Source: a virus
IMG/VR virus record: IMGVR_UViG_3300046457_000194
Span: 1-45,910 of that record
DNA length: 45,910 nucleotides
Reading direction: 5' to 3' (one strand)
How positions within the stretch are numbered: position 1 is the first letter of the stretch; each line of letters starts with the position of its first letter. The position numbers and the translations under genes are program-made. Positions 1,474-26,535 of this stretch are shown one piece after another. Below the pieces are notes generated by a model. The model did not search any database, was not told where the DNA came from, and saw only the letters and a list, made by a program, of their open reading frames with translations.

Positions 1474-2273
1474 GCGCGGCTCCGGTACGAATCCCAATCG
1501 AACACATGCACGCGGCCGCCGCCTTCGCGCAGCCGATCGACCACGCGCGGCGTCAGGTATTTCTCGATGCCTTCGAGCGACTCGTTCGAAATCACGATCG
1601 TCGGCTTGCAGGCGTCATAGCGGCCGTTGAGAATCGCGAACAGGATCATTTGCTCGTTGTCGCCGCCGCCCTGAATGCCGACTTCGTCCAGAATCAGCAG
1701 ATCGGGCTCGACAAACTTCGCGATCGACTCGCGCTCGGAGAGCTTCGAGCCCGGCCGATACGACTCGCGCACGAATTGCACCGCTTCATACGTGCGGGCG
1801 AAGAACGGCAGAGCGCCCATGCGCGCGATCTGCCGGGCGATCGACACCGCCAGATGCGTTTTGCCAGTGCCGGGCTTGCCGCACAGAATCAGATTCTTGC
1901 CCGTCTCGCGCACCGTCTCCCACGACGCCGCATAGTCGGCGCACACGTCGAGCGCGGCCTTCTGCGCAGGCGTCTCGACTACATACGACTTGAGCGACGC
2001 GTCGGCGAAGCGCTTCGGAATCTCCGCGCCTTGCCAGCCGCTCAGCAGGTTCGTGCGGCGCGCGGTGCGCATCGTCTCGGCGACTTCGGCCGCTGCCGAC
2101 TGCGCTTCGCGCTCTTCCATGCACTTCATGCAGCCCGCCCACCGCTTGACGCCCCCGAACGTCGAGGCGAGCTCGACATACGCGCCATGCGTCGCGCACA
2201 CCGCGTCGCGGCGCTCCATCTCGACTTTGCCAAGCATGGCCGCCACCGGCTGAAAATCGTCAGAACGTGCCAT
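1470..2273 (-). CDS. DnaC-like AAA+ helicase loader
   Basis: The 267-residue protein has a Walker A loop CGKPGTGKTH at 131-140, Walker B LLILDEVG at 192-199, a sensor-I-like VISN at 227-230 and an arginine-finger region near DRLRE. This is the DnaC/DnaA-type AAA+ layout of proteins that load the replicative helicase. A small N-terminal cluster (C26, H29, C48, C51) looks zinc-binding, as in many phage DnaC homologues. The ATG at 2273 gives a normal N-terminus; a longer in-frame start encodes an arginine-rich shadow of the upstream gene. It overlaps the replication protein gene by 14 bases, consistent with a primosome pair. Confidence 0.92.
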   Translation of the reverse strand: MARSDDFQPVAAMLGKVEMERRDAVCATHGAYVELASTFGGVKRWAGCMKCMEEREAQSAAAEVAETMRTARRTNLLSGWQGAEIPKRFADASLKSYVVETPAQKAALDVCADYAASWETVRETGKNLILCGKPGTGKTHLAVSIARQIARMGALPFFARTYEAVQFVRESYRPGSKLSERESIAKFVEPDLLILDEVGIQGGGDNEQMILFAILNGRYDACKPTIVISNESLEGIEKYLTPRVVDRLREGGGRVHVFDWDSYRSRA

Positions 2274-3162
2274 CGGCCTTAATCCCCTTGTGATAGTCGA
2301 TCGCGTCGTAGTCAGCCATCGTCTTAGGCTTGCCCGAGACGATCGGCGCCGCCGCCTTGTGCATGTGATTCCAGACCTTTTGCATGTCGCGCAGCAGAAT
2401 CGCGACGTCGTGCTGGCATTGCTCATAGAAGCCGCCGAGCGTCACGTAATGCGCGACGAGCTGCGGTGCCTTCTCGGCTCCCACGGTTTGCACGATGGAC
2501 TTCAGTGCGGCATTGACCTTCGCGCTGCGCAGCGGCTCGATGCCGTAGCGCTTCGCATATGCCGCCGCATAGGCTTCCCACGAAGCCGTTGTTACCGGCG
2601 CAGCTTTTTTCTTGGGCGCGCTCGGCGTCGCGTCAGCGGCGACGGAAGGTTTTAGATGGTTTACTTCATTGGGTACTTCATTGGTTTCATTCGGGTGTCC
2701 ACCAGACACCAAGGTAGTGTCAGAGTGGAACCCCGGTAGTGTCTGACTGACACCACCAGAAACAGGTGGTGTCTGTTGGACACCACCGGATTTTTGCACC
2801 GGAGCGATACAGTCATCGAGCGTGCCGTCATCAAAATCGGTCACATCGACGGCAGGCGCCGACACGAACGAGTTATCGGGCGTCTTGAGCCGATAGACGT
2901 TGCTCTTGTTCACACCGTTCGCCTTTTTGCGCTTCGTGACCGAGATCCAGCCTTTATCGGTCGCGCCCTTCACGGCGCGAATCGCCGACGAACGCGAGAT
3001 GCTCGCCATGTCGGCGATCGTGTTGAAGCTCGGCCATGCGGGCGTGCCCATATCGTTCACATGCGACGCGATGACGAGCAGCACGATTTTCTCGTAGCAC
3101 GTCAGAGCGTCGGCGGGCGCCTTGAGCACGGCCGCCCGGAAAGTCCATTCAGGCGCGGCCAT
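2260..3162 (-). CDS. Winged-helix phage replication protein (O/DnaT-like)
   Basis: The 300-residue product begins with a helix-turn-helix domain at about 20-95, with the helix pair around TIADMASISRSSAIRAV followed by a wing. It then has a low-complexity linker and a C-terminal helical domain with WEAYAAAYAKRYG. This matches phage replication initiators and primosomal proteins that pair with a DnaC-like loader, here the next gene. The stop of the HNH gene overlaps the ATG at 3162; a GTG at 3165 is an alternative start. It probably drives lytic replication, separate from the plasmid initiator at 14.8-15.7 kb. Confidence 0.85.
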   Translation of the reverse strand: MAAPEWTFRAAVLKAPADALTCYEKIVLLVIASHVNDMGTPAWPSFNTIADMASISRSSAIRAVKGATDKGWISVTKRKKANGVNKSNVYRLKTPDNSFVSAPAVDVTDFDDGTLDDCIAPVQKSGGVQQTPPVSGGVSQTLPGFHSDTTLVSGGHPNETNEVPNEVNHLKPSVAADATPSAPKKKAAPVTTASWEAYAAAYAKRYGIEPLRSAKVNAALKSIVQTVGAEKAPQLVAHYVTLGGFYEQCQHDVAILLRDMQKVWNHMHKAAAPIVSGKPKTMADYDAIDYHKGIKADGTF

Positions 3163-4074: not shown

Positions 4075-4284
4075 TCAGTCAGCCAGCACTGAGGGATTGC
4101 ACAAGCCGTGCAGCGTGATCGTGTCGCCCGATGCCTTGATGATTTTCAGGGCCATATCAGCGGACGGTCGCTTGTTCGGTTCATACATGAGCTGGCGGAT
4201 GTAGGACAGCTTGGTACCGGCCTTTTCCGCCAGTTCGCGGAGCCCCTCGGTACCGTGGGCTAGGGAGTATTCGTAAAGAGTCAT
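4075..4284 (-). CDS. Cro-like helix-turn-helix regulator
   Basis: The 69-residue protein contains a helix-turn-helix at about 15-45 (LRELAEKAGTKLSYIRQLMY) followed by a short C-terminal tail, in the size and style of Cro/YdaS-type switch proteins. It is divergent from the repressor at 4429 and heads the early-left operon, the classical Cro position. The ATG at 4284 is preferred over an upstream in-frame ATG because it fits the domain and the predicted transcription start. There is no Shine-Dalgarno sequence before it. Confidence 0.85.
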   Translation of the reverse strand: MTLYEYSLAHGTEGLRELAEKAGTKLSYIRQLMYEPNKRPSADMALKIIKASGDTITLHGLCNPSVLAD

Positions 4285-4291
4285 GCGCCGA

Positions 4292-4320
4292 ACTTTACCC
4301 GTCAGATAAACAAAAGTAAA
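4292..4320 (-). promoter_or_regulatory. Promoter of cro-like gene
   Basis: On the minus strand TTTACT (4320-4315) and TAAAGT (4297-4292) are 17 bases apart, a good sigma70 arrangement. Transcription would begin at about 4285, at or next to the ATG at 4284, which predicts a leaderless message. A degenerate operator fills the spacer. Confidence 0.65.
4297..4307. promoter_or_regulatory. Operator in cro promoter
   Basis: ACCCGTCAGAT matches the ACCT-N3-AGGT palindrome at six of eight positions and is flanked symmetrically by TTT and AAA. It lies between the -35 and -10 elements of the cro promoter, as expected for repression. Confidence 0.55.
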
Positions 4321-4428
4321 GCGGCTCAGGCACTTGCGCAACATTCCGGCCGGGCTGATGATTCACCCTTCCGGGACTAGGCGAACAATAAAAAGACCAC
4401 CCCCGAAACAACGGGATATAGACAAAAA

Positions 4429-4869
4429 ATGGAAATCAAAGAAACGCGGCTGAGCAACTTCCTAACCCTTGCAAGTGGCTACTCGAAAATCATCGAGTTT
4501 TGCGAAGCTGTAGCAATGGCGCCAAGCTACTTTAGTCAGGTGAAGCGCGGACAGAAGGCGATCGGAGATGATCGCGCACGACAGATTGAAGAGGCTCTGT
4601 CACTTCCTAGAGGTTGGATGGATACTGTTCATGACCAGCCAGTCACGCCGTCTCGATTGCCGTCCGATGACCTTGGAGTGGTCTATGCACTATCTGGCCT
4701 TCCAGACTCAATTCGTCAAAACATCAAAACGCTGATCTACAACTTAGCCGCCGAGTACTCTGCTCGCGCGCCAAGTACAGGAAACGCTCGAAGCCCTGCG
4801 CGCAAGCGTCAGGAGCCAACAGCAGACGATGACGAATCCGCAACCGCTGCCGCCCACTACACACATTAA
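4429..4869 (+). CDS. Prophage repressor (XRE-type HTH)
   Basis: The 146-residue protein has an N-terminal helix-turn-helix at about 18-62, with FCEAVAMAPSYFSQVKRGQK as the DNA-reading part, then a helical segment and a polar, probably disordered tail. It lacks the S24 peptidase domain of LexA-cleavable repressors, so induction may work differently from lambda. It is divergent from the Cro-like gene, with a shared 144-base region between them. It is the best candidate to bind the ACCT-N3-AGGT operators. A possible -10 (TATAGA at 4417) is close upstream; no convincing -35 is seen. Confidence 0.85.
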   Translation: MEIKETRLSNFLTLASGYSKIIEFCEAVAMAPSYFSQVKRGQKAIGDDRARQIEEALSLPRGWMDTVHDQPVTPSRLPSDDLGVVYALSGLPDSIRQNIKTLIYNLAAEYSARAPSTGNARSPARKRQEPTADDDESATAAAHYTH

Positions 4870-8182: not shown

Positions 8183-8195
8183 CTCGAGAAACATC

Positions 8196-13347: not shown

Positions 13348-14031
13348 ATGGCAAATATCGTGCTATTCGGGGTAGGGAAGGGCGGCACTGGTAAGTCTAC
13401 GCTTTGCCAGAACGTCGCGGCCGTGCGCGCGTCGCTGAAGTATCGCACGGCGATTTTCGATCTGGATTGGCGGCAGGCAACGACGGGCAAATGGTGCATG
13501 GAGCGCAAGACGAAGCCCGAGCTCGCGCAGATCGACGTCGCCGTTTTGCCCGAAAGAGAGCTGCCGGACGTCGAGGCGGATATCGAATATTTTGGCCTTC
13601 GCCTCAATCGGATGATGCCCGAGTACGACGATATTTTCGTCGAAGTGGGCGGTCAAGACGGCGAGCTGCTGCGCGCGGCGATGACCGTCGCGGATAAGAT
13701 CGTCGCGCCGATTATCCCGTCGCCCGCCGACTTCAACACCGTTCCGGACTTCGCGAAGCTCGTGCGCAGCTTCGACAAAAAGCTCGACGTCTCGATCGTG
13801 CTGAACGAAGCGAACGAGTCGCCAAGGCTCACGCGCGACATTGTCAAAGGCATGGAGGACTACGAGGACGCCTTCGGCCTGTACAAGACACAGATCGGCG
13901 GGCGCGTCGCGTTTAAGTACGCAATGGCGGGCGGTTGGGCCGCACATGAAATCCCGACGAAGCGCCAAGGGTTCGACGCCGCCGCCGCGCATGAAATCAA
14001 AGACCTGTATCTGGAGATTTTCGGACGATGA
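13348..14031 (+). CDS. parA: ParA-family partition ATPase
   Basis: The 227-residue protein has the deviant Walker A VGKGGTGKST (9-18) with the signature lysine, a FDLDW motif for Walker A', and a C-terminal helical end. Its size is that of the small ParF/type Ib ParA proteins, which lack an N-terminal DNA-binding domain. These ATPases move plasmid copies apart by gradients on the nucleoid. The Walker B strand reads IFVEVGG, with Glu where Asp is usual. The ATG at 13348 is used; the stop overlaps the partner gene by ATGA. Confidence 0.9.
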   Translation: MANIVLFGVGKGGTGKSTLCQNVAAVRASLKYRTAIFDLDWRQATTGKWCMERKTKPELAQIDVAVLPERELPDVEADIEYFGLRLNRMMPEYDDIFVEVGGQDGELLRAAMTVADKIVAPIIPSPADFNTVPDFAKLVRSFDKKLDVSIVLNEANESPRLTRDIVKGMEDYEDAFGLYKTQIGGRVAFKYAMAGGWAAHEIPTKRQGFDAAAAHEIKDLYLEIFGR

Positions 14032-14441
14032 ACGCTTCGATCATGAAACCGAAGAGCCGCGACGTGCTTGCAGAGTTGCAGGCGAATAACTCGATCATCC
14101 GGCGCGGCACTGCCGAACCGACTGACGAGGGCCAGGAACCGCCCGCGCCCGCGCAGACGACGATCGACACGGCCAAGCCGCCAGCAGCGGCGCCAGCGGC
14201 CGGAAAAGCGGCGAAGAACGCGAAGGGGAAGGGCGCCGAAGGCTACCCGTGGGAAGAGGCGAGTGCGCGCGTGCCGAAGGTGTTCAATCTGCGGTTCAAC
14301 GAAATCGAGTATCAGGAACTTTGGTATCTCGGCGAGACGACCCTCGGCGACTCGATGCACTCGATCGCGATGCGCGGCGCGATGAAGGAGATCCACCGGA
14401 TGCTGAAGGAGCGGGGGATAGAGCCGCCGAAGTCGCGCTAA
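14028..14441 (+). CDS. Small ParB/ParG-like ribbon-helix-helix protein
   Basis: The 137-residue protein has a flexible Ala/Pro/Lys-rich N-terminal half and a C-terminal ribbon-helix-helix-like fold at about 86-130: a strand KVFNLRFNEIEYQEL, then helices through LGDSMHSIAMRGAMKEIHRML. That architecture and the overlap with parA match centromere-binding partners that stimulate ParA through their mobile N-terminus. It probably binds the CATACCA repeats and may repress parA. Confidence 0.75.
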   Translation: MNASIMKPKSRDVLAELQANNSIIRRGTAEPTDEGQEPPAPAQTTIDTAKPPAAAPAAGKAAKNAKGKGAEGYPWEEASARVPKVFNLRFNEIEYQELWYLGETTLGDSMHSIAMRGAMKEIHRMLKERGIEPPKSR

Positions 14442-14463
14442 CCACCCCCTTGCAAGCCGCTTT

Positions 14464-14529
14464 TCGGGTTTTGACTCCCGCCTATGATGGACAACGGCTT
14501 GCGGGCGGATTCGGGTTTTGAGTCCCGCC
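14464..14529. repeat. Two inverted iterons
   Basis: TCGGGTTTTGA occurs at 14464-14474 and 14511-14521, each followed by a CCCGCC run. It is the reverse complement of the iteron core downstream, and 14511-14529 is an exact 19-base inverted copy of 14686-14704. Inverted copies beside a plasmid origin can regulate copy number by initiator-mediated pairing. Confidence 0.8.
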
Positions 14530-14544
14530 TGCTGCCTTTGATTA

Positions 14545-14566
14545 AAAAGCATTAGAAAAGCATTAG
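14545..14566. repeat. 11-bp tandem repeat in AT-rich origin segment
   Basis: AAAAGCATTAG is repeated twice head to tail, one helical turn apart, within the only AT-rich stretch of this region. This is the form of a DNA-unwinding element. Confidence 0.7.
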
Positions 14567-14610
14567 CATAAAAAGGGACGGGCCGCGATGCCTTATCTGA
14601 CAAGGCGGGA

Positions 14611-14621
14611 GCCTGAGAGGT
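14611..14621. promoter_or_regulatory. Operator-like site beside the origin
   Basis: GCCTGAGAGGT matches the ACCT-N3-AGGT palindrome at seven of eight positions. It is eight bases before the first iteron and could connect the switch protein to replication, but one such match by chance is plausible. Confidence 0.35.
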
Positions 14622-14628
14622 GCGTGAC

Positions 14629-14730
14629 TCAAAACCCGATAGAGCGGGATTCAAAACCCGATAATTCGTGACTCAAAACCCGATAGGCGGGACTCAAAAC
14701 CCGATAGCAAATGTTTCTCAAAACCCGATA
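14629..14730. repeat. Five direct iterons of the replication origin
   Basis: The 13-base core TCAAAACCCGATA begins at 14629, 14651, 14673, 14694 and 14718, spaced 22, 22, 21 and 24 bases, so all lie on about the same face of the helix. Spaced iterons directly upstream of a TrfA-like gene define a theta-type plasmid origin. Confidence 0.93.
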
Positions 14731-14731
14731 G

Positions 14732-14740
14732 TTATGCACA
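14732..14740 (+). promoter_or_regulatory. DnaA box
   Basis: TTATGCACA fits the DnaA consensus TTATNCACA exactly and starts one base after the last iteron core. It indicates that host DnaA assists the initiator. Confidence 0.75.
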
Positions 14741-14797
14741 TCGCAGCCGAGGCGGTACGTGATAGTCTCGGCGGCATCGACAAGAGAGCCCTCGCCA

Positions 14798-15652
14798 ATG
14801 ACGAAGCCGAACGCACTTCAGTTGCTCGACCAGCGCGCGCAGGAGCGCGAGCAAGCCGCCGAGAAGCGCAAGTCTCGGCCCGTTCCGACGCAGCTTTCGC
14901 TGTGGCCCGAACGCGTGCGCGGGCTCCCGAACATGCTCGCACGCTGCGCGCTCTTCACGGCAGCCGGACATAAGGAAGAGCGCAGGGAATTCAACAAAGA
15001 TACGATCTTTTCTGTCGAAGGCTTCACGATGAAGTACAGCGGCCCGGAGCTCCGACAGGACGATCAAGACGTGTTCTTGCAGCTCGTCCACATGACGCGC
15101 AGCCTGCAGCCCGGCGAGAAGCTGAACGTTAGCGGATACGCCATTCTTCAAGCTCTGGGGTGGGATACGGGCGGCCGCGAGTACAAGCGGTTGCGCGAGC
15201 ATATCGACCGCATGGCGGACGGCAAGCTCGATATCGTCGGTACCATCGGCGGCGAGCCGTTCCACTTCAAGGGCGGCTTGCTGCCTTCAATGCTGACGAT
15301 CGGCGCGCACGCGCGCACGCGTTTTTCGCTCTGGATTGACCCAAGCGTCATTGCGCTCTTCGGCGAAGAGCAATACACGCTCATCGATTGGGCCGACCGG
15401 CTTGAGCTCGGCCCGCTCGCAAAGTGGCTGCACAGCTTCTATTTCACCCATCGCAAACCGTTCGCGTATCGGGTCGAGACACTGCATAAGCTCTGCGGAA
15501 GCCGGACGAAGGAGCTTAGGAGCTTCAAGAAGGCGCTCGCCAAGACGCTCGAAGGATTGAAGGCTTCGGGCTTTCTCGAATACGTGAAGATCGACGGCGA
15601 CTTGGTTCTCGTGCGCCGCGCGCCGGTCAAAGAAACGCAAGCCGCCGCCTGA
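14798..15652 (+). CDS. TrfA-like plasmid replication initiator
   Basis: The 284-residue protein matches the TrfA family of broad-host-range plasmid initiators: an N-terminal charged helix, then PTQLSLWPERVRGLPNMLAR, a DDQDVFLQLVHM segment, and tandem winged-helix regions through LGPLAKWLHSFYFTHRKPF and RSFKKALAKTLEGLKASG. Winged-helix domains of this kind bind iterons and recruit DnaA and helicase. The gene lies just after the iterons. The ATG at 14798 is chosen; a GTG at 14759 has an acceptable ribosome site and would add 13 residues. Confidence 0.93.
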   Translation: MTKPNALQLLDQRAQEREQAAEKRKSRPVPTQLSLWPERVRGLPNMLARCALFTAAGHKEERREFNKDTIFSVEGFTMKYSGPELRQDDQDVFLQLVHMTRSLQPGEKLNVSGYAILQALGWDTGGREYKRLREHIDRMADGKLDIVGTIGGEPFHFKGGLLPSMLTIGAHARTRFSLWIDPSVIALFGEEQYTLIDWADRLELGPLAKWLHSFYFTHRKPFAYRVETLHKLCGSRTKELRSFKKALAKTLEGLKASGFLEYVKIDGDLVLVRRAPVKETQAAA

Positions 15653-15923: not shown

Positions 15924-16151
15924 ATGCAGCCTGTCATGAAGGTGACGCATCGCGAGTGGGAGATACGCTCCTTTCCAGAGCGCAAGGGCTTTCTCTGGCA
16001 CGCGTGGGTCGAGGTCGAGCGTGGTCCGTGGGAGGACGAGGACGACGGCCAGATTTTCAACTTCACCGACATTGGCTACTACGACACGGAAGCGGCCGCC
16101 GCTCAGCGCGGCGTCGCGTGGGCGAAGGCGTGGCTCGATAGCAACTACTGA
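15924..16151 (+). CDS. Hypothetical protein, 75 aa
   Basis: The product is a compact acidic beta-alpha protein with a VTHREWEIRSFPER strand, a WHAWVEVERGPWEDEDDG hairpin and a C-terminal helix (AAAAQRGVAWAKAWLDS). A GGAG site nine bases upstream supports the ATG at 15924; M5 is an alternative. The stop overlaps the next start as TGATG. The domain looks like small proteins shared among proteobacterial plasmids and phages, with no known role. Confidence 0.65.
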   Translation: MQPVMKVTHREWEIRSFPERKGFLWHAWVEVERGPWEDEDDGQIFNFTDIGYYDTEAAAAQRGVAWAKAWLDSNY

Positions 16152-16411
16152 TGAAAAGACCCGGCGCGGTGGCTCTCGGTGACGTTGCGGCGCGCGCAAA
16201 GGCGCTCGATGTGGCCTGCACGCGCTGCGATCGGCGCGGCCAGTATCAGCTTGGGCGGCTCGTTGCGCGGCTCGGCCCGGATTTCCCGATGACCGATCTG
16301 GCCGACAAGCTGGTCGATTGCACGCGGCGAAATTCGCCCGCGTGGAGCGAGCGCTGCGACGTGTATTTCCCCGGCCTCGCCAAGATCATGAGCGACGAAC
16401 AAACTTCGTGA
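16151..16411 (+). CDS. Hypothetical protein with CxxC, 86 aa
   Basis: The protein has one Cys-x-x-Cys pair (ACTRCDRRG), a central LGRLVARLGPDFPMTDL motif and a C-terminal ERCDVYFPGL, giving four cysteines suited to a zinc ribbon. It is coupled by TGATG to the previous gene. This resembles small uncharacterised proteins of proteobacteria, and no function can be assigned. Confidence 0.65.
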   Translation: MKRPGAVALGDVAARAKALDVACTRCDRRGQYQLGRLVARLGPDFPMTDLADKLVDCTRRNSPAWSERCDVYFPGLAKIMSDEQTS

Positions 16412-17284: not shown

Positions 17285-17749
17285 TCAGGCGACTGAAAGC
17301 CCGGCGCCCGCCGCCTCACGCCGCAGCGTTACGGCGAAAAGATTCGGGTCGTAGCGCCACGGCTCATCGAAGCCGAGCGCGGCCGCAACCGATTCGGAGC
17401 AGAACCACTTCGCCTTATCGCCCTCTTCCGGCGACCAGACGAAGTGAAGCAGCCCGAGCACGTCATACGGCTGCCCGGCGTGTGCTTCGAACCATGCGAT
17501 CGCGGCCGCCTCTTGCGCGGGCGTCGTCGGCACGTCGATGACGTCCCAATCGGCCGCATCGAGCACGAGCGTCGTCGTGCGCACGCCATGATCCAGATAC
17601 GCCGACGACCAGCAAATTGCCTGACCGTCCGGCGTCTCGCCGATGACGAGCTCGCAATGCGAATATGGCCCCACCGTCCACCACTTCGTCGCGACGCCAA
17701 GCCAGCCCTTCACGCCGGGATGACGCCCCTTGAAGAACGCTACCTTCAT
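17285..17749 (-). CDS. Permuted papain-like (YiiX/NlpC-type) hydrolase
   Basis: The 154-residue protein has the permuted NlpC/P60 arrangement: PYSHCELVIGE with His31 and an acidic Glu33 come first, and the presumed nucleophile Cys117 comes late in WFCSESVAAALG. This order is typical of YiiX/YebB-like amidases or acyl hydrolases. Next to tail fibre genes it may cut peptidoglycan or a lipid-linked substrate during entry, but substrate is unknown. The ATG at 17749 overlaps the previous stop by ATGA. Confidence 0.75.
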   Translation of the reverse strand: MKVAFFKGRHPGVKGWLGVATKWWTVGPYSHCELVIGETPDGQAICWSSAYLDHGVRTTTLVLDAADWDVIDVPTTPAQEAAAIAWFEAHAGQPYDVLGLLHFVWSPEEGDKAKWFCSESVAAALGFDEPWRYDPNLFAVTLRREAAGAGLSVA

Positions 17750-18300
17750 GCAGGCCACCCCGTAGACCAGTCATACGCGTAGACGTCGGCAGCCGTCGTC
17801 TTGATCGCGTCGATTGCGTCCTGATGTTGCGCCGAGGCGCCGAACGCCGCCCCTTCGCGCGCCATGATCGCGCTCTTCAGTTGGACGAACAGATCGAACG
17901 TCATCGTCATGTACGTGTTGTCGGCGGTGCGCCAGTACGTCGCGTAGGCAGGCAAAGACCCCGCACCGACCACGTTCATGATCTGGATCTTGCTCGTCAG
18001 GTCCGTCTGGAAGGTCTTTCCATTGAACGGCGTGAGCAACAGCAGATCGTCGCGATGCGCGCGAATCTGCGCCTTCACGGCAGCCTGAGCGGCTGCGAGC
18101 AGCACCGCCGGGTCAACCGGCGGCGCATCGGCGAGCGCGCCGTTGCTTACGATTTTCGAGCCTTGATTGCTGATGCAGAACTGCCATTCGGCTTCGGTAA
18201 TGTCGATGACTGCCGCGCCTTGCGGCGCAGGGCTATCGACAGTGTCATAGAAGGCAACGATGTTGCCGTTTGCGTCGTATGCAGCTTGTTTTTGACCCAT
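17746..18300 (-). CDS. Tail fibre assembly-like protein (DUF4376-like)
   Basis: The 184-residue protein has an N-terminal part with AAYDANGNIVAFYDTVD and a W residue after VIDITEAEW, as in tail-fibre assembly or DUF4376 proteins. A C-terminal helical domain has IRAHRDDLLLLTP and LTSKIQIMNVVG. DUF4376-type proteins follow fibre genes and often serve as chaperones or end-caps. It directly follows fibre gene 2. The first eight residues also start a 27-codon remnant at 19150, evidence of module duplication. Confidence 0.75.
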   Translation of the reverse strand: MGQKQAAYDANGNIVAFYDTVDSPAPQGAAVIDITEAEWQFCISNQGSKIVSNGALADAPPVDPAVLLAAAQAAVKAQIRAHRDDLLLLTPFNGKTFQTDLTSKIQIMNVVGAGSLPAYATYWRTADNTYMTMTFDLFVQLKSAIMAREGAAFGASAQHQDAIDAIKTTAADVYAYDWSTGWPA

Positions 18301-18304
18301 GATC

Positions 18305-19063
18305 TTATTTCCCTATTGCCATCCAATAAACCGTCGTCGCACTTCCGGTATTCACATTCATGAAGTTGAAGCCGGTCAACGTTATCGAGTTGGTCCCGGT
18401 CATATAGAAGTTCCCTCCACTAAGCGCAAAACCTTGCGTTATCCCGTAGCAGTTCGAAGGGAATGCAATCGGAAATGTCACCGCGCTCGTGCTGTTAATC
18501 GGAATGGTCAAGCTACCCCACTGGATAATCAAACCAGAGGGCAGCTTTTGATAACCGTTCGACGCGATAGACGAGCCAAACGCCGTTGATGACTTCCCGA
18601 GTTGAAGCGAGCCGCCGAATGCCTGCCAGCCAGAGCCGAATTTGACGATGTAAACGCTATCGCCGTATGCCACCACTGGCGTGACATTCCCGCCTGAACC
18701 GGAGTAAACGATGCCGTCACCCGAAGCGGGCGAAATTGTGGCTTTGGCCGTTGAGTTTGACGTACCGACGAAGCAAAAAATCGTTCCGTTCGCCACGGAC
18801 GACAAAGCGGGCAGCGTCAGCGTGATATTGGACGTCGCCGAAATGCCGAGCATCTGGCCCGCGTAAGAGGCGGGAATGTTGCCGGTCGCGTTCAATGGTT
18901 GGATGCCGCTCATGTTCCCGAGCGCCTGCTGCACGAAGCCCGTCGTCGCGGCGAGCAACGAGTTATCAAACTGCGCAGGCGTCGCGGGCAGCAAGATATT
19001 GTTTGATCCATCGATCGAGAGAAGCGACCCGAGCTTCGCCAGAGTGGCCGAAAGAGCGCCCAT
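18305..19063 (-). CDS. Second tail fibre protein
   Basis: The 252-residue protein has a short N-terminal linker with [10 protein letters not shown], a beta-rich centre with many Gly, Ser and Thr, and a C-terminal domain beginning [14 protein letters not shown] and ending VYWMAIGK. That end is the gp53-like receptor-binding domain seen in many fibres and is shared with the long fibre upstream. It lacks the baseplate-binding N-terminus of a full fibre, so it may be an alternative tip or a partner subunit. Confidence 0.8.
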
Positions 19064-19066
19064 ATA

Positions 19067-19150
19067 TCAGACTCCGAAAAAATGAAACGCGAGCAATACA
19101 CGCGCGGCTATCTCCCGCGCGCGCTCGTATGCGGCTTGTTTTTGGCCCAT
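19067..19150 (-). pseudogene. 27-codon remnant of fibre assembly gene
   Basis: The frame starts MGQKQAAY, the same eight residues that begin the assembly protein at 18300, and the DNA around both starts is nearly identical. After that it diverges and stops, ending three bases before fibre gene 2. It is most simply the stump of an assembly gene that once followed fibre 1. It also places a GGAG ribosome site for fibre 2, so it may persist as a leader. Confidence 0.7.
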
Positions 19151-19153
19151 GAT

Positions 19154-22123
19154 TTAATATCCGATCGAGATAAAGTTTCCGGGCTGCGTGACAACTGACG
19201 CACTGGAGTTCCACACTTGGAAGTTGGCTTTCGCGTTGCCTCCACCTGCGCCATTGATACCGTTGATGACCGGACTTCCAGAGGCAGTCGCGCCAGCCGT
19301 CACAACCGTTGCGAGAGCGGCATTCGGGTAGGCAATCGGGAAGGAGACAACAACGCTCGAATTTGCTGCGATTTGAGCGACTGGCCCCCACTGGATAATC
19401 AGACCGCTCGGCAGCTTTTGATAGCCGGACGTGGAGAGGGACTTGGCGAACGATCCCGCCGTTTGCAATTGCCCCGATCCAGCGAGTTGAGTCCACGCGG
19501 TATTCTTGTTGACCAAGAAAATCGCGTCGTTCGGGAGCAGCGTCATTGACGTAGCTGCCGTGACCGAAAAGTTGTCCGATCCCTGCGTCACAATGGTGAC
19601 GTTGAAGGTGCTCAGGTTCGATATCCAAATGCCCGATCCAGCGTTCGGCAACGTGCCCGATGCGGGAAGCGTGAGCGTGACAACACCGCTCGAACCGAAT
19701 ACGCGCACGTTCTGGCCTACGTTAGCCGCCGTGAGGGTTGTCGATGCAGAAAGCGTTATGTCATTCGCAAGACTGCCGAGCGCCCGCTGCACAAAAGCCG
19801 TCGTCGCGAGCTTTGTCGTGTTGTCGAACTGCGCAGCCGTGACGCCCGTATCGCCGCCCGCGAGCATGACCGGGCCGCTGAACGTGCCGCCCGCAGGCGT
19901 CATCGCATTGGCGACCGAGAACGACGAGAACGCGATAATCTCGACTTCTTCGCCGCCGAGGCAGCCCGCCCCGCCGTTGTAGCCCGTGAGCGTCACCGTC
20001 GCGCTATTCGTGGCCGTCACGTCGCTCGGCGCTTGCACCGCACCATTGACCGTGACCAAGACGTTTCCGACCGTATAGATCGCATTGAACGTGCTTTGCC
20101 CCGCCGACGCGGTGAACCAGTAGCGCGTGAATGCGCTGGTCGATGCAGCGCCCGCGAGCACGACGTTCGTGCCGTCGCTATAGGCGACAACCGAGTTCGA
20201 CTGCGGAATGATCGCCGTCGCGCCGCTCGCGCCCGAGACGCCCACATTCAGCGTGTAGGCGCCAGTCGTGTTGTTCGCGATGATGTACTGGCCGGTACCG
20301 GGCGGCACATACACCGTGATCGAGCCCGTCAGCGCGCCGGTCAGCAGAATGATGCCGACGCCCGCCTGAGTGGCCGTCAGCGTCACATTGGCGTTTCCTG
20401 CCACGTTGACGGTCGTCGCGCCATTCTTCGCGTTCACGACAAATGCAGTCGTGGCAACGCGGGTTGTGTTCGTGCCAGCCGTCGCGGTCGTCGCCGTGAT
20501 CGCGCCCGCCACTTGCAGCAGCGTCGCGCCGTCGTCAGCGGCCGCGCCGACGAGCACACGCCCGCCCGACTGCATAAGCTGCATCGTTGTGAGCGCCGTA
20601 CCGCCGCCGGTCGGACGATTGATCGCAAGCGCGTTCTGCGAGACGCTATATACGTCGTTGATCGAGCGCACCACGAAGCTGCCGCCCGACGTGTGCAGAA
20701 CTTCCCAATACTTTTCATCGGTCGGCGCACCTTCGCGCGACAGGTAGATCGAAGTCTGCCCGGCTCCGCTGCCATTCGAGGCGATCAGCGCCTTTTGCGC
20801 GGCGACGCCCTTAACGGTACCTGTCGCCGAGATGGAGCCCGCGACTTGCAGCTTGTCCGTGCCGTTGTCGGTCGTCGTGCCGATCAGAAGCGTGCCGCTC
20901 AGATGGTTCGACGCGGAACCGTCCAAGTAGAGGTTCCATTTGGCATTGCCAGAACTCATGCGGCTGCGCACGCCGTAGTTAGTTCCGGCGCCGCTGAAGT
21001 CCTGAACGTACACACCCGTATAGGTTCCGACCGTCGCGCCTGAGCCGATCGTCGGCGTGTTGGCGTAGAAGCCGATCAGGTTCCCCATCGTGAACGCCGA
21101 AGCCTTCACTTTCGGGGCCGCAGTGAACGCGTAGCCGCCGCCGGTCGTTGTCTCGTTGAACTCTTGCGCGTGGAAAAAGCCGTATGCCGTCGTAGACGTG
21201 CTGAGGCTCACGCCGTTCGCGTAGTACGCGACGTTGTTCGACGGCGACGTAACCCCGCCGCCTACGGTCATGTAGCCGTCAGCGTTGAGCGCGAAGCCCG
21301 AGGTATTCCACACGCCGCTGTTATCGCCCGGATCATTGGCGATCTTGAGAACGCCGTTATCCATCAGCAAACGCATGTTCTTCGCGTTCGCCGTCTGGTC
21401 GATGAGCTGAATCGTCGGCTGATACGACTCGATCGACAGGCCGCCGCCAGTGCCCGAATAGGCGTCGGCCACGCGCAGCGTCGGCGTGTTCAGCGCCGCC
21501 CACGCGCTTGCCGTGTTGGTCGAGCCGCTCGGCGAAACCATGCCGCCGGTCAGCGGCAGATAGCCGAGCCCGTAGACGTTCGTGCCGTCCGTCAGAACCT
21601 TCTGCGAGCCGGTCTGCGGCAGATCCATCGTCGTGCCGCCCGCCGTCGCGCTCTTGAGCGTGATCGAGTACGAGCCTGACGTCGAATTGCGCATGATCCA
21701 CGACGAAGCCGAGCCCGGCACCGTGATCGTGATATTGCCGGTGAGCGCGCCAGTGAATTCGATGAACGCATAGCCCGCCTGCACGGCCGAGAGCGTGACG
21801 TTCGCGCTGCCCGCGACGTTGATCGCGATGCGGCCTTTGGACGTCGCTTGAACGAACGCGGTCGTCGCGATCTGAACGCTGGAGTCACCGATACTTGGCG
21901 CGGCCGTTTTCGGCGTGCCAGTGAGCGTCGGCGAGAGCAGCGGCGCGAGCGTGGGCGTGAGCGCGTTGATCGTATCGACTTGGCTCTTGAGGTAAGCCGT
22001 GCGGTTCGCGAGGTTCGTCGCTGCCTTGTTCGCGATGCCGTTCGTCCCGCCGAGGACCGCGTCGTTCGTCGCGATCAGGTAGACGGCGGAATCGTAGTTG
22101 ACTGTTTCGACAATGTTTGCCAT
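19154..22123 (-). CDS. Long tail fibre protein
   Basis: The 989-residue protein begins with a helical fibre N-terminus and then carries repeated modules. Two long copies start at TTAFVQATSKG and TTAFVVNAKNG and share NVAGSANVTL- and TGALTGNI-like strands; a third TTAFVQ module lies near the end. The receptor-binding C-terminus starts [14 protein letters not shown] and ends NFISIGY, like fibre 2. It should bind the host surface. Gly/Ser/Thr-rich beta repeats and length fit a trimeric fibre. Confidence 0.9.
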   Translation of the reverse strand: MANIVETVNYDSAVYLIATNDAVLGGTNGIANKAATNLANRTAYLKSQVDTINALTPTLAPLLSPTLTGTPKTAAPSIGDSSVQIATTAFVQATSKGRIAINVAGSANVTLSAVQAGYAFIEFTGALTGNITITVPGSASSWIMRNSTSGSYSITLKSATAGGTTMDLPQTGSQKVLTDGTNVYGLGYLPLTGGMVSPSGSTNTASAWAALNTPTLRVADAYSGTGGGLSIESYQPTIQLIDQTANAKNMRLLMDNGVLKIANDPGDNSGVWNTSGFALNADGYMTVGGGVTSPSNNVAYYANGVSLSTSTTAYGFFHAQEFNETTTGGGYAFTAAPKVKASAFTMGNLIGFYANTPTIGSGATVGTYTGVYVQDFSGAGTNYGVRSRMSSGNAKWNLYLDGSASNHLSGTLLIGTTTDNGTDKLQVAGSISATGTVKGVAAQKALIASNGSGAGQTSIYLSREGAPTDEKYWEVLHTSGGSFVVRSINDVYSVSQNALAINRPTGGGTALTTMQLMQSGGRVLVGAAADDGATLLQVAGAITATTATAGTNTTRVATTAFVVNAKNGATTVNVAGNANVTLTATQAGVGIILLTGALTGSITVYVPPGTGQYIIANNTTGAYTLNVGVSGASGATAIIPQSNSVVAYSDGTNVVLAGAASTSAFTRYWFTASAGQSTFNAIYTVGNVLVTVNGAVQAPSDVTATNSATVTLTGYNGGAGCLGGEEVEIIAFSSFSVANAMTPAGGTFSGPVMLAGGDTGVTAAQFDNTTKLATTAFVQRALGSLANDITLSASTTLTAANVGQNVRVFGSSGVVTLTLPASGTLPNAGSGIWISNLSTFNVTIVTQGSDNFSVTAATSMTLLPNDAIFLVNKNTAWTQLAGSGQLQTAGSFAKSLSTSGYQKLPSGLIIQWGPVAQIAANSSVVVSFPIAYPNAALATVVTAGATASGSPVINGINGAGGGNAKANFQVWNSSASVVTQPGNFISIGY

Positions 22124-22130
22124 TCGTGCC

Positions 22131-22574
22131 TCAGAAGGTAATGAGCCACGAACCGGACAAGGTAATGTCCGTCTGCTTCACCAGTGCCGCGAGCCGCACC
22201 TTGCGCGCGAAGAGCTTGCCGTTGGTCGTGAGCAGACCGAATTCCTGAAGCGACATGCCGTTAGCCTCAGTCGTGCCGAGCGAGAAGTTGAACTGCACCT
22301 GATTGGTCGCGGGAAACGTGACGGAATCGAACGCCTTGGCGTATTGACCAGTGAGCACGGTATCGGTCAGCGCGGGCGTCGTGCCGTTCGTGCCGAAGCC
22401 CATTTGCGTGATCGCCCACCCGGCCGTGTTGCCGAGTGCATTGCACTGGATTTGTTTCGATGCCGTGACGACCAAGTTCGGCGCATCGAGCACGTCGATG
22501 AGCTTTCCGTTCCGGTACGCGCGGCAGATGAGATGCCCGACCGGCGCATCTCGTACTTCGTCGCGAAGTTGCAT
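22131..22574 (-). CDS. Baseplate-to-fibre structural protein
   Basis: The 147-residue protein starts with RDAPVGHLICRAYRNGKLID and has a beta-sandwich pattern through QMGFGTNGTTPALTDT and LQEFGLLTTNGKLFARK. This matches small tail proteins coded between the J/I baseplate genes and the fibre. A linker between baseplate and fibre is likely from position. A GGAG ribosome site precedes the start, and the late-gap motif lies 26 bases upstream. Confidence 0.7.
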   Translation of the reverse strand: MQLRDEVRDAPVGHLICRAYRNGKLIDVLDAPNLVVTASKQIQCNALGNTAGWAITQMGFGTNGTTPALTDTVLTGQYAKAFDSVTFPATNQVQFNFSLGTTEANGMSLQEFGLLTTNGKLFARKVRLAALVKQTDITLSGSWLITF

Positions 22575-22586
22575 AGGGTGACTCCA

Positions 22587-22607
22587 GAGAGTGTTCTAGC
22601 CACTCTC
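22587..22607 (-). other. Stem-loop before baseplate-fibre gene
   Basis: GAGAGTG and CACTCTC form a perfect 7-bp stem with a 7-base loop. It directly follows the conserved half of the late-gap motif and precedes the GGAG ribosome site. There is no T tract. Confidence 0.6.
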
Positions 22608-22617
22608 GCGTCACGAC
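22600..22617 (-). promoter_or_regulatory. Late-gap motif, site A
   Basis: GTCGTGAC GCGAG AGTGG on the minus strand. It fits the seven-site consensus GTCGTGAC-NNNAN-NNTGN and lies upstream of the baseplate-fibre gene at 22574. Confidence 0.65.
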
Positions 22618-22629
22618 CGCATGCGTGGA

Positions 22630-23631
22630 TCAGCCGTTCAGCGTCTCATCGAATGCGCTGCCCGAGCTGTAGTTGATTTCGCCGTTGAATGTGCGCGTGC
22701 CGTCATAAACGGTCGCCTGCGTCCAGTGGATCGAGCCGCTATCGCCGGGCATGGGAATCGTCGGCTCAACGATCGTCGGGATACCCACGTTCGCGGCGAT
22801 AGCGTTGCCGCCGTCGCTGCCGTTGAAGCCGGTATCCGTCAGCGTAGAGCCGACAAGCGCGAACGAATTCAGGTGCATGCCCGCGTCGCGCAGCGTCTCG
22901 ATGCGGGCCTTGACCATCGTCGTGTAAGCGTTCACGTCGTCGGCGCCGAGCAGGTCATACCCCGCTTGCACGTCGAAGAGCCCGAGTACTTGCGGCGACA
23001 TGGAATTCGTCGCAACGTACAAGTCGGTCACTGTCACTTTCTGGCCGAGCAGCTCAAAGAGCGCCGACTCGATCGCGACGTTATTGCCGCGCGGGCGCAG
23101 CACTTCCATGATGATGCGCGACGCGTAGGCGGCATCGATCTCATCCTTCTCGCGAGGGACGTTGAAATAGCCGCCCCACTCGTCCACCCATTCAGCAGTC
23201 GCCGTCGTGAGTGACATTTGCAGAAGCGCCTGCTTGATTTGCAGTGCGGCCGCGACGAGCTCACTCGCGAACGGCTCCAGCAGCGCCCACAGCGTCGATG
23301 AATACGCCATGAGATGATCGCCATTGCTTTGCGACTGGTCGCCGCTCGCATCGATCAGCACGCGCGCGGAAAGCGAGGTATTGCCGCTCGTGAGGTATGG
23401 CACTGTGATGCCCGGAACGGCCGCAAGAGCCGTCGCGAGCGTCGAGAGGGTGTATTGCGACAGATCGAACGAGAAAAGCTGCGTCGAGCCGCTCACACCC
23501 GTCAGAAAGCCGTCCTCAACCGTCCAGACGAACGCCCCGCCGCTGTAGTTGATGCGCAGCGCGAGATAGGCGTTTGCGTCTTTGCTGAAAGCGCGGTAGA
23601 TCGAGCCGAGAAGTTTTTGCGTGAGCTTCAT
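22630..23631 (-). CDS. Baseplate protein, gpI-like (tail protein I)
   Basis: The 333-residue protein follows the J-like gene and has, at about 165-220, EWGGYFNVPREKDEIDAAYA and helical RIIMEVLRPRGNNVAIE, resembling tail protein I and DUF2612-type baseplate wedge proteins. The N-terminal and C-terminal thirds are beta-rich. It is expected to join J to the fibre network at the baseplate edge. The start is one base after the J stop. Confidence 0.75.
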   Translation of the reverse strand: MKLTQKLLGSIYRAFSKDANAYLALRINYSGGAFVWTVEDGFLTGVSGSTQLFSFDLSQYTLSTLATALAAVPGITVPYLTSGNTSLSARVLIDASGDQSQSNGDHLMAYSSTLWALLEPFASELVAAALQIKQALLQMSLTTATAEWVDEWGGYFNVPREKDEIDAAYASRIIMEVLRPRGNNVAIESALFELLGQKVTVTDLYVATNSMSPQVLGLFDVQAGYDLLGADDVNAYTTMVKARIETLRDAGMHLNSFALVGSTLTDTGFNGSDGGNAIAANVGIPTIVEPTIPMPGDSGSIHWTQATVYDGTRTFNGEINYSSGSAFDETLNG

Positions 23632-23632
23632 G

Positions 23633-24754
23633 TTATTGCGTCGTCAGCGTGATCGTGCCCGGCATGACCTTTTGGCTCGCCGAGAGAACCGTGTTTGACG
23701 TCGGCGAAGCAAGCCAGAAGTCGGCGACGCCCGACGTGTCCATCGCGAGCTGCACGATCGTCGCGTATTGCGCGGGCACGCCGATGTTAAGCCCGGTCAG
23801 ATAGTTCGAAATGGCGGTTTGTACGGCCGTTTGAACGTCCGAGGGGATATACCCATCTTCAAGGATGATCGTCGCGGAGACGTTCACGCTTATGACCGTC
23901 GCAGCGATGATATCGACGCGCGCGCCTGCGGCCTTATAGCCCGGCACCGCCGTGCCGTCCGACTTGTAGTAGCCGTACACGACTTGCTTCGCGGCCGCGA
24001 TCAGCGACGCCGAGGCACCATTCACGCCATTGTGGATATACGCCTGCACGTAGCCCACCGGTTGCGTGTTATCAGTGATCCACGGCTCGACCACGTTCGA
24101 CGCAATCACTTGTTCGATGATGACGCCGTTCGAATCCGTCACGTTCGCGAGCGACAGCCCGTATTTCACCGCCGCGACCGTGCCGCGCTGGAGCGAGTTG
24201 ATGAATGCGATGAATCGCGCCTTTTGTTGCGCGTCTGTTTCGTCATCGGTCCCGGTCGTGAAGGCGCCGGTATTGGCTGCCGACACGAATCCGCTCGGCT
24301 GCGGCTGCAAAGTGAAGTCAGTGCCCGCCGTCAGGTTGCCGCTCGTGCCCGCCGTCGAGCAGGCGATATAGACGTCGGCATACGTGGCGCCCGCCGCGAT
24401 GGTCGCGTCCGCTTGCGACGTGAAGGTGAGCGCAGCGCCGACCGGCGTGAAGATCGTGCCCGCCGGGATCTTGAGCGCGCTCCCCTGCGCGGCAATTGTC
24501 ACACGGACGTTTCCGCTTGCCGCGACAGCGGAGAGCTTCGGGAAGTTGAAGCTCGTGTAGATCGCGGTCGGAATCGCCTCGCGCAAGCCGACGAACATTT
24601 GCTGATAGAGCTCTTCGAGTTCCATCGCGACCGCTTCCATGATCGTGCGCGCGATCGCGCCGATACGGAAGTCAGTGATCGCCGTCTGAATGGACTTCAG
24701 ATAGTTGATGCACGATGCGCTGATACTCGCGAAGTCTTTTACCTGAAATGCCAT
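23633..24754 (-). CDS. Baseplate wedge protein J (gp47-like)
   Basis: The 373-residue protein has the Baseplate_J pattern: an N-terminal helical region ending MELEELYQQMFVGL, then beta domains with LKIPAGTIFTPVG, ADVYIACSTAGTSGNL and TGTDDETDAQQKARF, and a C-terminal part with GYIPSDVQTAVQTAI. J forms the wedge that transmits the contraction signal in P2, Mu and T4 type tails. Gene order gp25, J, I matches these phages. Confidence 0.93.
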   Translation of the reverse strand: MAFQVKDFASISASCINYLKSIQTAITDFRIGAIARTIMEAVAMELEELYQQMFVGLREAIPTAIYTSFNFPKLSAVAASGNVRVTIAAQGSALKIPAGTIFTPVGAALTFTSQADATIAAGATYADVYIACSTAGTSGNLTAGTDFTLQPQPSGFVSAANTGAFTTGTDDETDAQQKARFIAFINSLQRGTVAAVKYGLSLANVTDSNGVIIEQVIASNVVEPWITDNTQPVGYVQAYIHNGVNGASASLIAAAKQVVYGYYKSDGTAVPGYKAAGARVDIIAATVISVNVSATIILEDGYIPSDVQTAVQTAISNYLTGLNIGVPAQYATIVQLAMDTSGVADFWLASPTSNTVLSASQKVMPGTITLTTQ

Positions 24755-25366
24755 TCAAACCACCGAAGTAAGGGAAATGGTTTGGCCGCTCACGATTTGC
24801 ACCCGCGCGGTCACATTGAATTTGTCGCCATTGACGACGGTCACGACGCTCGTCACCTGCTGCACGCGGTCGTCCTCAATGAGCGCCGAGCGCACATAGA
24901 GCGCGGCGAGCTGCGCGGTCGTCGGTCCCGCGCCCGTGCCGATCAGCTTCCTGATCCAGCTTCCGAATTCCGGATGAAAGACGAGCTCTTCCTTATCGAC
25001 GCCGATGCGCACTCTCAGCGCTTGCGAGAGGTTGTCGAGCCCTGAGACGACAGAGAGATCGCCGCCGTCGATGACGAGCTCGCCGTTGTGCAGCTCCAGA
25101 TCGGAGCCGAGCAGATCGGTCGATGCCGTCGCGTTCACTTGGCTCGCCGCAGTCGGCACGAGAATCGTCGCGCCCGGCGCGACCACTTGCGGGTCAGACG
25201 CATAGGCCGAATCCGTCGAGATATACGGCGGATGCAAGTCGTTAAACTGCGCAATGTCCGGCCAGCGCTCGGCATCGCCGAGCTCGCGCAGCGCGATACG
25301 CTGGAGCGTGTCGGTTTGAAGAACCGTGACTTGGCGCGAGCCGGACGGGATGAATTGACCAGCCAT
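24755..25366 (-). CDS. Baseplate gp25/W-like protein with LysM domain
   Basis: The 203-residue protein fuses two parts. Residues about 10-75 form a LysM-like module (VTVLQTDTLQRIALRELGD, then IAQFNDLHPPY). Residues about 90-200 match gp25/W, with LRVRIGVDKEELVFHPEFGSW and the RSALIEDDRV helix. LysM modules bind the tail tube or peptidoglycan; gp25 starts sheath polymerisation. The fusion saves one gene compared with P2. Confidence 0.88.
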   Translation of the reverse strand: MAGQFIPSGSRQVTVLQTDTLQRIALRELGDAERWPDIAQFNDLHPPYISTDSAYASDPQVVAPGATILVPTAASQVNATASTDLLGSDLELHNGELVIDGGDLSVVSGLDNLSQALRVRIGVDKEELVFHPEFGSWIRKLIGTGAGPTTAQLAALYVRSALIEDDRVQQVTSVVTVVNGDKFNVTARVQIVSGQTISLTSVV

Positions 25367-26535
25367 TAGCCCACCGTCAGCCCGTTATTGATGTTCGTGA
25401 GATGCGCCTGCACGGTCGCAAGGCTCGGCGGATTGGTCGCCGCGTCGATGCCCTTGAGCGCCGTGACCGAATTGGCCGCTTCGGTCCCGATCTGCACCTG
25501 AGCGGCGTTCGACTTCGCCTGAATCTGTTCGAACGTGTTGACGTTCAGATAGGCCGAGAGCGACGTGCCGCCCGCCGTCGATGAGCAGTTGGACGCGCCA
25601 TAGACGCCCGAAAAGTCTTGCAGGACGCGGCTTTGCTTGAAGCAGTTCGACAGCACGCAGAAGATATTGAAGAACGACGAGCGCACCTTCATGAACTGCG
25701 TTTTCACGTAGTTCGGAATCGACGCGATGGTCGAGAACACCGAGAACACGCTCGACGCCGCGCGCGTCAAGTCTTTCGCGATCGAGATGAGCCCGTAGGT
25801 CAGCGAATTCACCACCTTGAGCCCGGTCATAATCACGGTTTTCACGGCCGTGCAGACGGTTGTCACCACCTTCACGAACGCTTTCACCGAGGCGACGATC
25901 GGCCCGAGCGCCGACTTGATGGCGTCGTTGATGCCATTCAGGAAATCCATTGCGCTCTGCAGGGACGCGGCGAGCGAATCAAGACCGAGCGCCTGAAGCG
26001 CGCCGAACGTCGAGCCCGAGGCGGTTGCGCCGCCGGATGCCACGTATTGCGACAGATAGGTCATGCCGATCTGATACTGCGCGAGCAGCGGGCGGCGGCG
26101 GTCGCGCTTGAGCACGAACTGCGTAGGCGCGACGACCCACGCGATATCGTCCATCGCGTCCGAGAAGATGAGCTGAATCGTGTCCGGATCGAGCCCTTGC
26201 AGCGTCTTGAGCTGGCGCGACAGATGCCACGCGTTGAAGATGACGTCGTGCAGCGTTTTCATGCGCGCAAGACCGTCGTCGCCGTTGTCGTCCGGCCGCC
26301 AGCCGGTATGCCCGGAGATGGAAAGCGTCGGCACGCCCGGCCCGAACGAATCCGCCCACGCGCCCGAGCCGCCGAACGTCTGATGGACGGTCGTGCGCGA
26401 GCTTTCAGTGCGCGTCAACTCTTCCGGCCGGATATACAGCGGAATAGTCGCTAGAGGCTGACTTCCCTTGGAAGTGTCCTGAAGCGTGAAGCTGATCGGC
26501 CGAACGTCGGCTTTTTGCGAGGAAGGAGCGCTCAT
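25366..26535 (-). CDS. Tail baseplate/hub adaptor protein
   Basis: The 389-residue protein has an N-terminal beta domain (ISFTLQDTSKG, then LYIRPEELTRTES) and a segment with QLIFSDAMDDIAWVVAPTQF and RRPLLAQYQIGMTYLSQ, resembling the tube-contacting part of XkdP-type tail proteins. A helix-rich region of short hydrophobic stretches (about 215-300) follows, then a C-terminal tail. Its position between spike and gp25 genes supports a baseplate role. The exact family is uncertain. Confidence 0.65.
   Translation of the reverse strand: MSAPSSQKADVRPISFTLQDTSKGSQPLATIPLYIRPEELTRTESSRTTVHQTFGGSGAWADSFGPGVPTLSISGHTGWRPDDNGDDGLARMKTLHDVIFNAWHLSRQLKTLQGLDPDTIQLIFSDAMDDIAWVVAPTQFVLKRDRRRPLLAQYQIGMTYLSQYVASGGATASGSTFGALQALGLDSLAASLQSAMDFLNGINDAIKSALGPIVASVKAFVKVVTTVCTAVKTVIMTGLKVVNSLTYGLISIAKDLTRAASSVFSVFSTIASIPNYVKTQFMKVRSSFFNIFCVLSNCFKQSRVLQDFSGVYGASNCSSTAGGTSLSAYLNVNTFEQIQAKSNAAQVQIGTEAANSVTALKGIDAATNPPSLATVQAHLTNINNGLTVG

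Follow-up and report, generated by a model that had tools for sequence, protein, structure and literature searches.

In the present study, we examined a stretch of viral DNA, IMG/VR record IMGVR_UViG_3300046457_000194 (the record in full, 45,910 bases long and classified as linear, called here the window), in which a plasmid-type module lies on the same DNA as the genes of a contractile-tailed phage. The module comprises genes for a ParA partition ATPase, a small partner protein and a TrfA replication initiator, with an iteron region, and all of these are contiguous and on one strand. We believe that the window is very probably about half of a temperate phage of about 89 kilobases (kb) from Burkholderiaceae, whose prophage would be a low-copy plasmid, with a proposed scheme of two origins and with TrfA replicons entering, or being exchanged at, one genomic slot more than once.

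The ParA-TrfA module

A reading made from the letters alone (the sequence-only reading) had placed ParA, a ribbon-helix-helix (RHH) partner, iterons, a DnaA box and TrfA side by side at 13348-15652. All of them were found and the coordinates were exact, with the RHH fold of the partner being only probable. The features are as follows; G001 and G002 are sister phages of metagenomic origin and G003 is a more distant phage contig.

13268..13347, unstranded: region upstream of parA, with a presumed promoter and candidate centromere (parS); conserved in an alignment of three sister phages (window, G001, G002), with repeats
13348..14031, + strand: parA, Walker-type partition ATPase, 227 amino acids (aa) (Pfam MipZ, PHROG 164)
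14028..14441, + strand: ParA partner, probable RHH centromere-binding protein, 137 aa (from gene order and a low-confidence model)
14463..14483, - strand: iteron, inverted copy 1 (repeat search)
14510..14530, - strand: iteron, inverted copy 2 (repeat search)
14536..14590, unstranded: AT-rich stretch, candidate DNA-unwinding element (60% AT against 38% in the window)
14623..14731, + strand: five direct iterons of 20 nucleotides (nt), at 14623, 14645, 14667, 14688 and 14712 (spacing 21-24)
14732..14740, + strand: DnaA box TTATGCACA, directly after the direct iterons
14798..15652, + strand: trfA, plasmid replication initiator, 284 aa (PF07042; start kept in G001)
15924..16411, + strand: two small open reading frames after trfA, accompanying the module (74% identical, also trfA-adjacent, in G003)

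TrfA matched PF07042 with 95.4 bits (cut-off 22). Its reading frame extends to GTG 14759, but the true start is probably ATG 14798, which gives 284 aa as in G001. Iterons, a DnaA box and an AT-rich region adjoin the gene, as is characteristic of the TrfA family. The AT-rich stretch is flanked by the inverted copies on one side and by the five direct iterons on the other. We found the iteron core CAAAACCCGA seven times in the window, always within the module, against 0.07 occurrences expected, and a chance origin of the iterons was rejected on this count. The core is confined to the vicinity of trfA in G001, G002 and G003 as well, and the DnaA box has its equivalent place in G001 and G002. The layout of inverted array, gap and direct array upstream of trfA recurs in G002, G003, a Pararobbsia contig (below) and two Burkholderia plasmids. 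Among the phages and plasmids that share it the cores differ (CTCAAAACCCGA, CTAGAAACCCGA, CTCAAACCACGA), a pattern that joint divergence of initiator and iterons would produce. The first of the two downstream small reading frames was also found on Caballeronia plasmids.

ParA was identified by MipZ (57.5 bits, cut-off 20.7) and by phrog_164, 'ParA-like partition protein' (E 2e-27). With 227 aa and no N-terminal helix-turn-helix (HTH), it has the size of a type Ib protein, and among solved structures ParF of TP228 comes closest (E 5e-8); the partner of ParF, ParG, is an RHH protein. The start of the partner gene overlaps the end of parA by 4 nt, and the order ParA-partner-TrfA is common to G001-G004, the Pararobbsia contig, a Caballeronia contig (C126) and plasmid pTY921B. 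The partner itself gave no Pfam or PHROG family match; by visual alignment, its C-terminal segment corresponds to that of partners from other ParA-TrfA modules. In a low-confidence AlphaFold model the N-terminal part is mostly disordered and two C-terminal helices reach a pLDDT of about 71, and a search of the PDB with a profile of the C-terminal segment returned no RHH protein.

A full-length sister and an element in a cultured host

The genome of G001 (89,361 bases) aligns to nearly the full length of the window, mostly at 84-94% DNA identity, and the window covers about half of it. Portal and terminase are not in the window; both lie in the half of G001 that has no window counterpart. Judged from this alignment, the complete genome would have ~89 kb, of which the window represents about half. 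The ends of G001 overlap by 194 bases at 99.5% identity, so that its map closes at ~89.17 kb, and this overlap is compatible with headful packaging from a pac site. Outside the head genes, few proteins are as well conserved as ParA (97% identical between window and G001) and TrfA (98-99%). The absence of an integrase, as previously claimed, is not decidable from the window alone because the window is a linear half-genome; it does hold in the full-length genome of G001, which has no match to PF00589 (Phage_integrase) or PF00239 (serine-recombinase catalytic domain). Scans of the window with Rfam and a tRNA search found nothing.

A sheath scan of a collection of 84,980 species' genomes led to Pararobbsia silviterrae DHC34, a cultured host. 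Here a stand-alone contig of 90,347 bases, whose ends overlap exactly over 96 bases, carries a sheath gene and, ~19 kb away, TrfA, a partner of 126-139 aa and ParA, with iterons present. Terminase, portal, major capsid protein (MCP) and protease are on the same contig, which gave no match to the tyrosine integrase family PF00589. It also encodes a small serine resolvase of 214 aa (G025:C11 67809-68231), possibly for multimer resolution; a comparable resolvase of 225 aa is carried by phage KS14, according to an excerpt of its description (PMC3091744). In 398 sampled genomes of Burkholderiaceae, sheath was found in 2 and TrfA in 66, and both stood on one contig only in Pararobbsia. The integrase-free, end-overlapping G001 and the stand-alone 90-kb DHC34 contig support the earlier proposal of a phage-plasmid.

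Since the window, G001 and G002 are all of metagenomic origin, a plasmid replicon might have been joined to a phage contig during assembly. The same neighbourhood, however, occurs in three separate metagenomic records with clearly different sequences, and in diverged form in an isolate genome, that of Pararobbsia. We therefore rejected a chimera, which is contradicted by the separate assemblies and has a negligible probability.

The lysogeny slot

Comparison of the sheath proteins places the window phage, as judged from sequence, in the PHB04/Dolphis/Mecenats66 group of ~90-kb myophages. Bordetella phage vB_BbrM_PHB04 (Phabquatrovirus), Pseudomonas phages Dolphis and Touem01, Aeromonas phage ST4 and Morganella phage Mecenats66 have sheaths 35-58% identical to those considered here and genomes of ~86-95 kb; for the window sheath, the identities are 57% (PHB04), 54% (Dolphis and Touem01), 51% (ST4) and 35% (Mecenats66). 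A tyrosine integrase is encoded by PHB04, Dolphis, Touem01 and ST4; Mecenats66 is without one, and none was found in G000-G004. The integrase is also present in 10 of the 11 IMG/VR relatives of at least 85 kb without TrfA (G005 and G007-G015). The exception, G006, is a 94-kb end-overlapping relative with no match to tyrosine integrase, serine recombinase, phrog_164 ParA or TrfA.

In PHB04, a Caballeronia contig (C104), G005 and G007-G013, the integrase sits between early helicase/recombination genes and lysis/tail-fibre/baseplate genes; for G014 and G015 its flank was mapped on one side. The ParA-TrfA module stands between the corresponding neighbours in the window, G001, G002 and Pararobbsia, and thus occupies the slot that is held by a tyrosine integrase in most relatives. 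Integration at attachment sites, which the sequence-only reading had named as the observation that would speak against a phage-plasmid, was seen in one integrase-type relative, G009 (G026:C1), a prophage in the chromosome of Microvirga lupini bounded by 51-base direct repeats (98%) at a tRNA-Arg gene. No TrfA-type element seen here was integrated in this way. Caballeronia pedi was considered as a further host of a TrfA phage, but was dismissed: the slot in the 49-kb phage contig of this species is filled by an integrase, and the TrfA is on a contig separate from the phage genes, with different iterons.

The phage could still integrate by an unrecognised recombinase, or by one encoded in the unsequenced half, with the par and rep genes being plasmid-derived cargo. 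The window is indeed only a half-genome, and Touem01 combines integrase and ParA. Nevertheless, the full-length G001 is without either recombinase family, in Pararobbsia the element forms a contig of its own, with overlapping ends and no tyrosine integrase, and the module stands where relatives have the integrase itself. We consider integration very improbable on this evidence, and maintenance of the prophage as a dormant plasmid is most likely.

Early operon and candidate lytic origin

The previous claim of a second, DnaC-dependent replication operon agreed with the gene content, since an O-like and a DnaC-like gene were both found. The features of this region are as follows.

4429..4869, + strand: divergent repressor-like gene, prophage repressor candidate (phrog_5736, phrog_12107)
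4075..4344, - strand: Cro-like HTH regulator, head of the early operon with the O and DnaC genes (phrog_35, 24 bits; HTH_3 under cut-off)
2260..3162, - strand: lambda O-like replication initiator (HTH_36, 41 bits; PHROG replication initiation protein / O-like)
2695..2783, unstranded: candidate lytic origin within the O-like gene, made up of three GTGTC-N5-GACAC palindromes with AT-rich DNA alongside (2640-2700)
1470..2273, - strand: DnaC-like helicase loader, 267 aa (PHROG 50, E 2e-65; start as in G001)

The early operon contains the Cro-like gene, RusA, HNH, the O-like gene and the DnaC-like gene, and is transcribed away from the divergent repressor-like gene. The three palindromes are the only ones of this kind in the window, and all are in the O gene. 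In G001 the centre of this gene is diverged and has a 15-nt repeat array instead of the palindromes. Phage lambda has the same arrangement, with the origin inside the initiator gene. The O-gene repeats, different in the sister phages, support a second, putatively lytic origin and, as far as sequence goes, the two replication modes that had been claimed.

We propose the following scheme. In the dormant prophage, TrfA would bind the iterons beside trfA and, with host DnaA, start plasmid replication, while ParA and its small DNA-binding partner would segregate the plasmid copies. When the candidate repressor is lifted, the early operon would make the O-like initiator and the DnaC-like loader, and these would start lytic replication at the repeats inside the O gene. 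The resulting concatemers would then be packaged by headful. At the integrase slot, TrfA replicons would have entered or been exchanged more than once. Headful packaging with a pac site is described for Mecenats66, whose terminase falls into one clade with the Dolphis and PHB04 terminases (PMC9503643).

A different explanation is that the phage is virulent or defective, with the TrfA-ParA genes being cargo that is in decay or has no use. The evidence for a lysogen comes from the host of a relative rather than from the window phage itself, and Mecenats66, fHe-Yen8-01, phiT5282EW and G006, which are without tyrosine integrase and ParA, may be virulent. Against this, the near identity of ParA and TrfA to those of G001 and the iteron architecture kept across diverged phages and plasmids indicate selection, a repressor-like gene is present, and a relative does reside in a cultured host. 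This explanation was therefore judged to be highly improbable, and we retain that of a temperate phage with a plasmid prophage.

Two HNH endonuclease genes of the window (3162-3557 and 33743-34240) are both absent from G001. The first adjoins the O gene whose centre diverged from G001, and the second is also present in G002 and G006.

Ancestry of TrfA

The TrfA tree unites the proteins of the window, G001 and G002 with that of G003; next to join this cluster are the TrfAs of B. glumae-type plasmids and that of G004. The Pararobbsia TrfA falls among other Burkholderiaceae TrfAs. A single origin of TrfA in these phages was rejected by this tree (approximately unbiased test, p-AU 2e-6). In the sheath and ten-gene trees, Pararobbsia is placed among the integrase-type relatives or beside G006, not with the window. 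These results suggest either that TrfA was captured twice or that the module was exchanged later.

G003 is a 111-kb contig of an SSU5-type siphophage with tail J, NrdA, SbcC and ligase genes, and its portal is 51% identical to that of SSU5 and 62% to those of ~107-kb Acinetobacter plasmids. Phage-plasmids of the SSU5 type differ from the window phage in a siphovirus-type tail and in unrelated head genes. The TrfA of G003 is nevertheless 62% identical to that of the window; the iteron core is shared as well, and so are the two small downstream reading frames (74%). The module therefore appears to move between unrelated phage lineages. We are inclined, with some reserve, to a broader view: the lysogeny slot of this group of ~90-kb myophages would accept an integrase or, in its stead, a plasmid replicon, at least two captures of TrfA would have taken place, from different plasmid lineages, the module would have been traded with SSU5-type phage-plasmids, and related incompatibility determinants would be common to unrelated phage-plasmids and conventional Burkholderiaceae plasmids.

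Several points weigh against our interpretation. The window is a metagenomic fragment, and its host (Burkholderiaceae) is deduced from relatives. End overlap alone fits both a circular plasmid and a circularly permuted phage genome; the DHC34 contig outweighs it as evidence, but comes from a draft assembly and is not the window phage itself. The exclusion between ParA and integrase, though seen as a tendency, is not significant by count of near-complete genomes (Fisher p 0.12), and Touem01 (PP179325.1) combines a tyrosine integrase with a ParA (24279-24905) encoded away from it. The RHH fold of the partner, probable from gene order and model, is plausible and unconfirmed. Finally, a forced grouping of Pararobbsia with the window stays unrejected in the capsid and tail trees (p-AU 0.13, 0.29), and exchange of the module within one lineage is possible.

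Precedents and novelty

Phage P1 has a plasmid replicon with partition genes for lysogeny (RepA and ParAB) and a separate replicon for lytic replication (RepL), in a different virion family. It resembles the window phage in having two replicons and differs in having no TrfA and no O/DnaC. Two replicons in one phage are thus not new, and the close precedents are KS14 and the mycobacteriophages of cluster A. KS14 is a small P2-like Burkholderia phage with a contractile tail, a plasmid prophage and ParA; a TrfA/iteron replicon is unmentioned in the excerpt of its description (PMC3091744), and in a search of the phage collection the window had no match to KS14 at the DNA level. Within cluster A, some phages have parABS where others have the integration cassette (PMC7157519); the parABS phages have Actinobacteria as hosts and combine ParB with RepA or RNA-based origins, in contrast to TrfA and iterons in the window.

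On the plasmid side, Burkholderia pTY921B and B. glumae p86s5p have a TrfA 45% identical to that of the window and the same iteron architecture, with the core CTCAAACCACGA against CTCAAAACCCGA in the window. The order ParA-small gene-TrfA of pTY921B is like that of the window, whereas p86s5p has a longer ParB; no virion gene cluster was found in the annotated stretches examined of these two plasmids.

Among 50,697 phage records there was no TrfA match at E 1e-5, which points to phage-plasmids that this collection fails to reveal. The unannotated PHROGs family phrog_26900 matches TrfA at 90 bits, so such proteins have already been sequenced in phages or prophages. No TrfA phage-plasmid is described in the titles and abstracts of the papers found on both TrfA and phage-plasmids, and TrfA and Burkholderia are unmentioned in the phage-plasmid papers searched in full text. 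The combination had been called unusual, which in view of P1, KS14 and the mycobacteriophage parABS was partly overstated; a TrfA/iteron phage-plasmid replicon that fills the integrase slot, in a group whose members mostly bear an integrase, appears to be new in the collections and literature searched. If our interpretation is true, chromosomal insertion and plasmid life would be an exchangeable cassette in proteobacterial myophages, as is known for mycobacteriophages, and a TrfA initiator, of the IncP plasmid family, could maintain the prophage of a tailed phage. Where phages and plasmids have TrfA iterons in common, plasmid incompatibility would then either hinder lysogeny or open a route for exchange.

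Virion genes and related elements

The sheath and baseplate genes that had been reported were confirmed by PHROG matches. The virion genes of the window are as follows.

17746..26535, - strand: tail fibres and baseplate genes (PHROG tail/baseplate matches)
28896..32330, - strand: large protein in the tape-measure position, with a glucosaminidase domain (PF01832, 46.5 bits)
35662..37380, - strand: contractile tail sheath (phrog_279, E 1e-63)
41884..43338, - strand: major head protein (phrog_752, E 1e-84)
44023..44904, - strand: head maturation protease (phrog_1028, E 3e-33)

With the terminase and portal of G001, these genes make up the structural set of a virion. Their order is the same in PHB04, where the identities are 57% (sheath), 49% (MCP), 59% (protease) and 40-46% (baseplate); PHB04 differs in having primase and helicase genes where the window phage has the O/DnaC operon. 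No phage near-identical to the window was found in the phage collection. The only match was an isolated mosaic patch, the gene for single-stranded DNA-binding protein at 8192-8574, with 80-85% DNA identity to Bcep22-like podoviruses.

Two further elements have virion genes of the same group. One is a 91-kb end-overlapping contig (G024:C1) from a Rhodospirillales metagenome-assembled genome, in which no TrfA and no tyrosine integrase were found and a ParA gene (88765-89445) lies near the tail-fibre slot. The other is RHOApe of Rhodovastum atsumiense (NZ_OW485606.1), a 112-kb 'plasmid' without a match to phrog_164 ParA or tyrosine integrase; it carries terminase, portal, sheath (45%) and RepA, and is a phage-plasmid with a different initiator.

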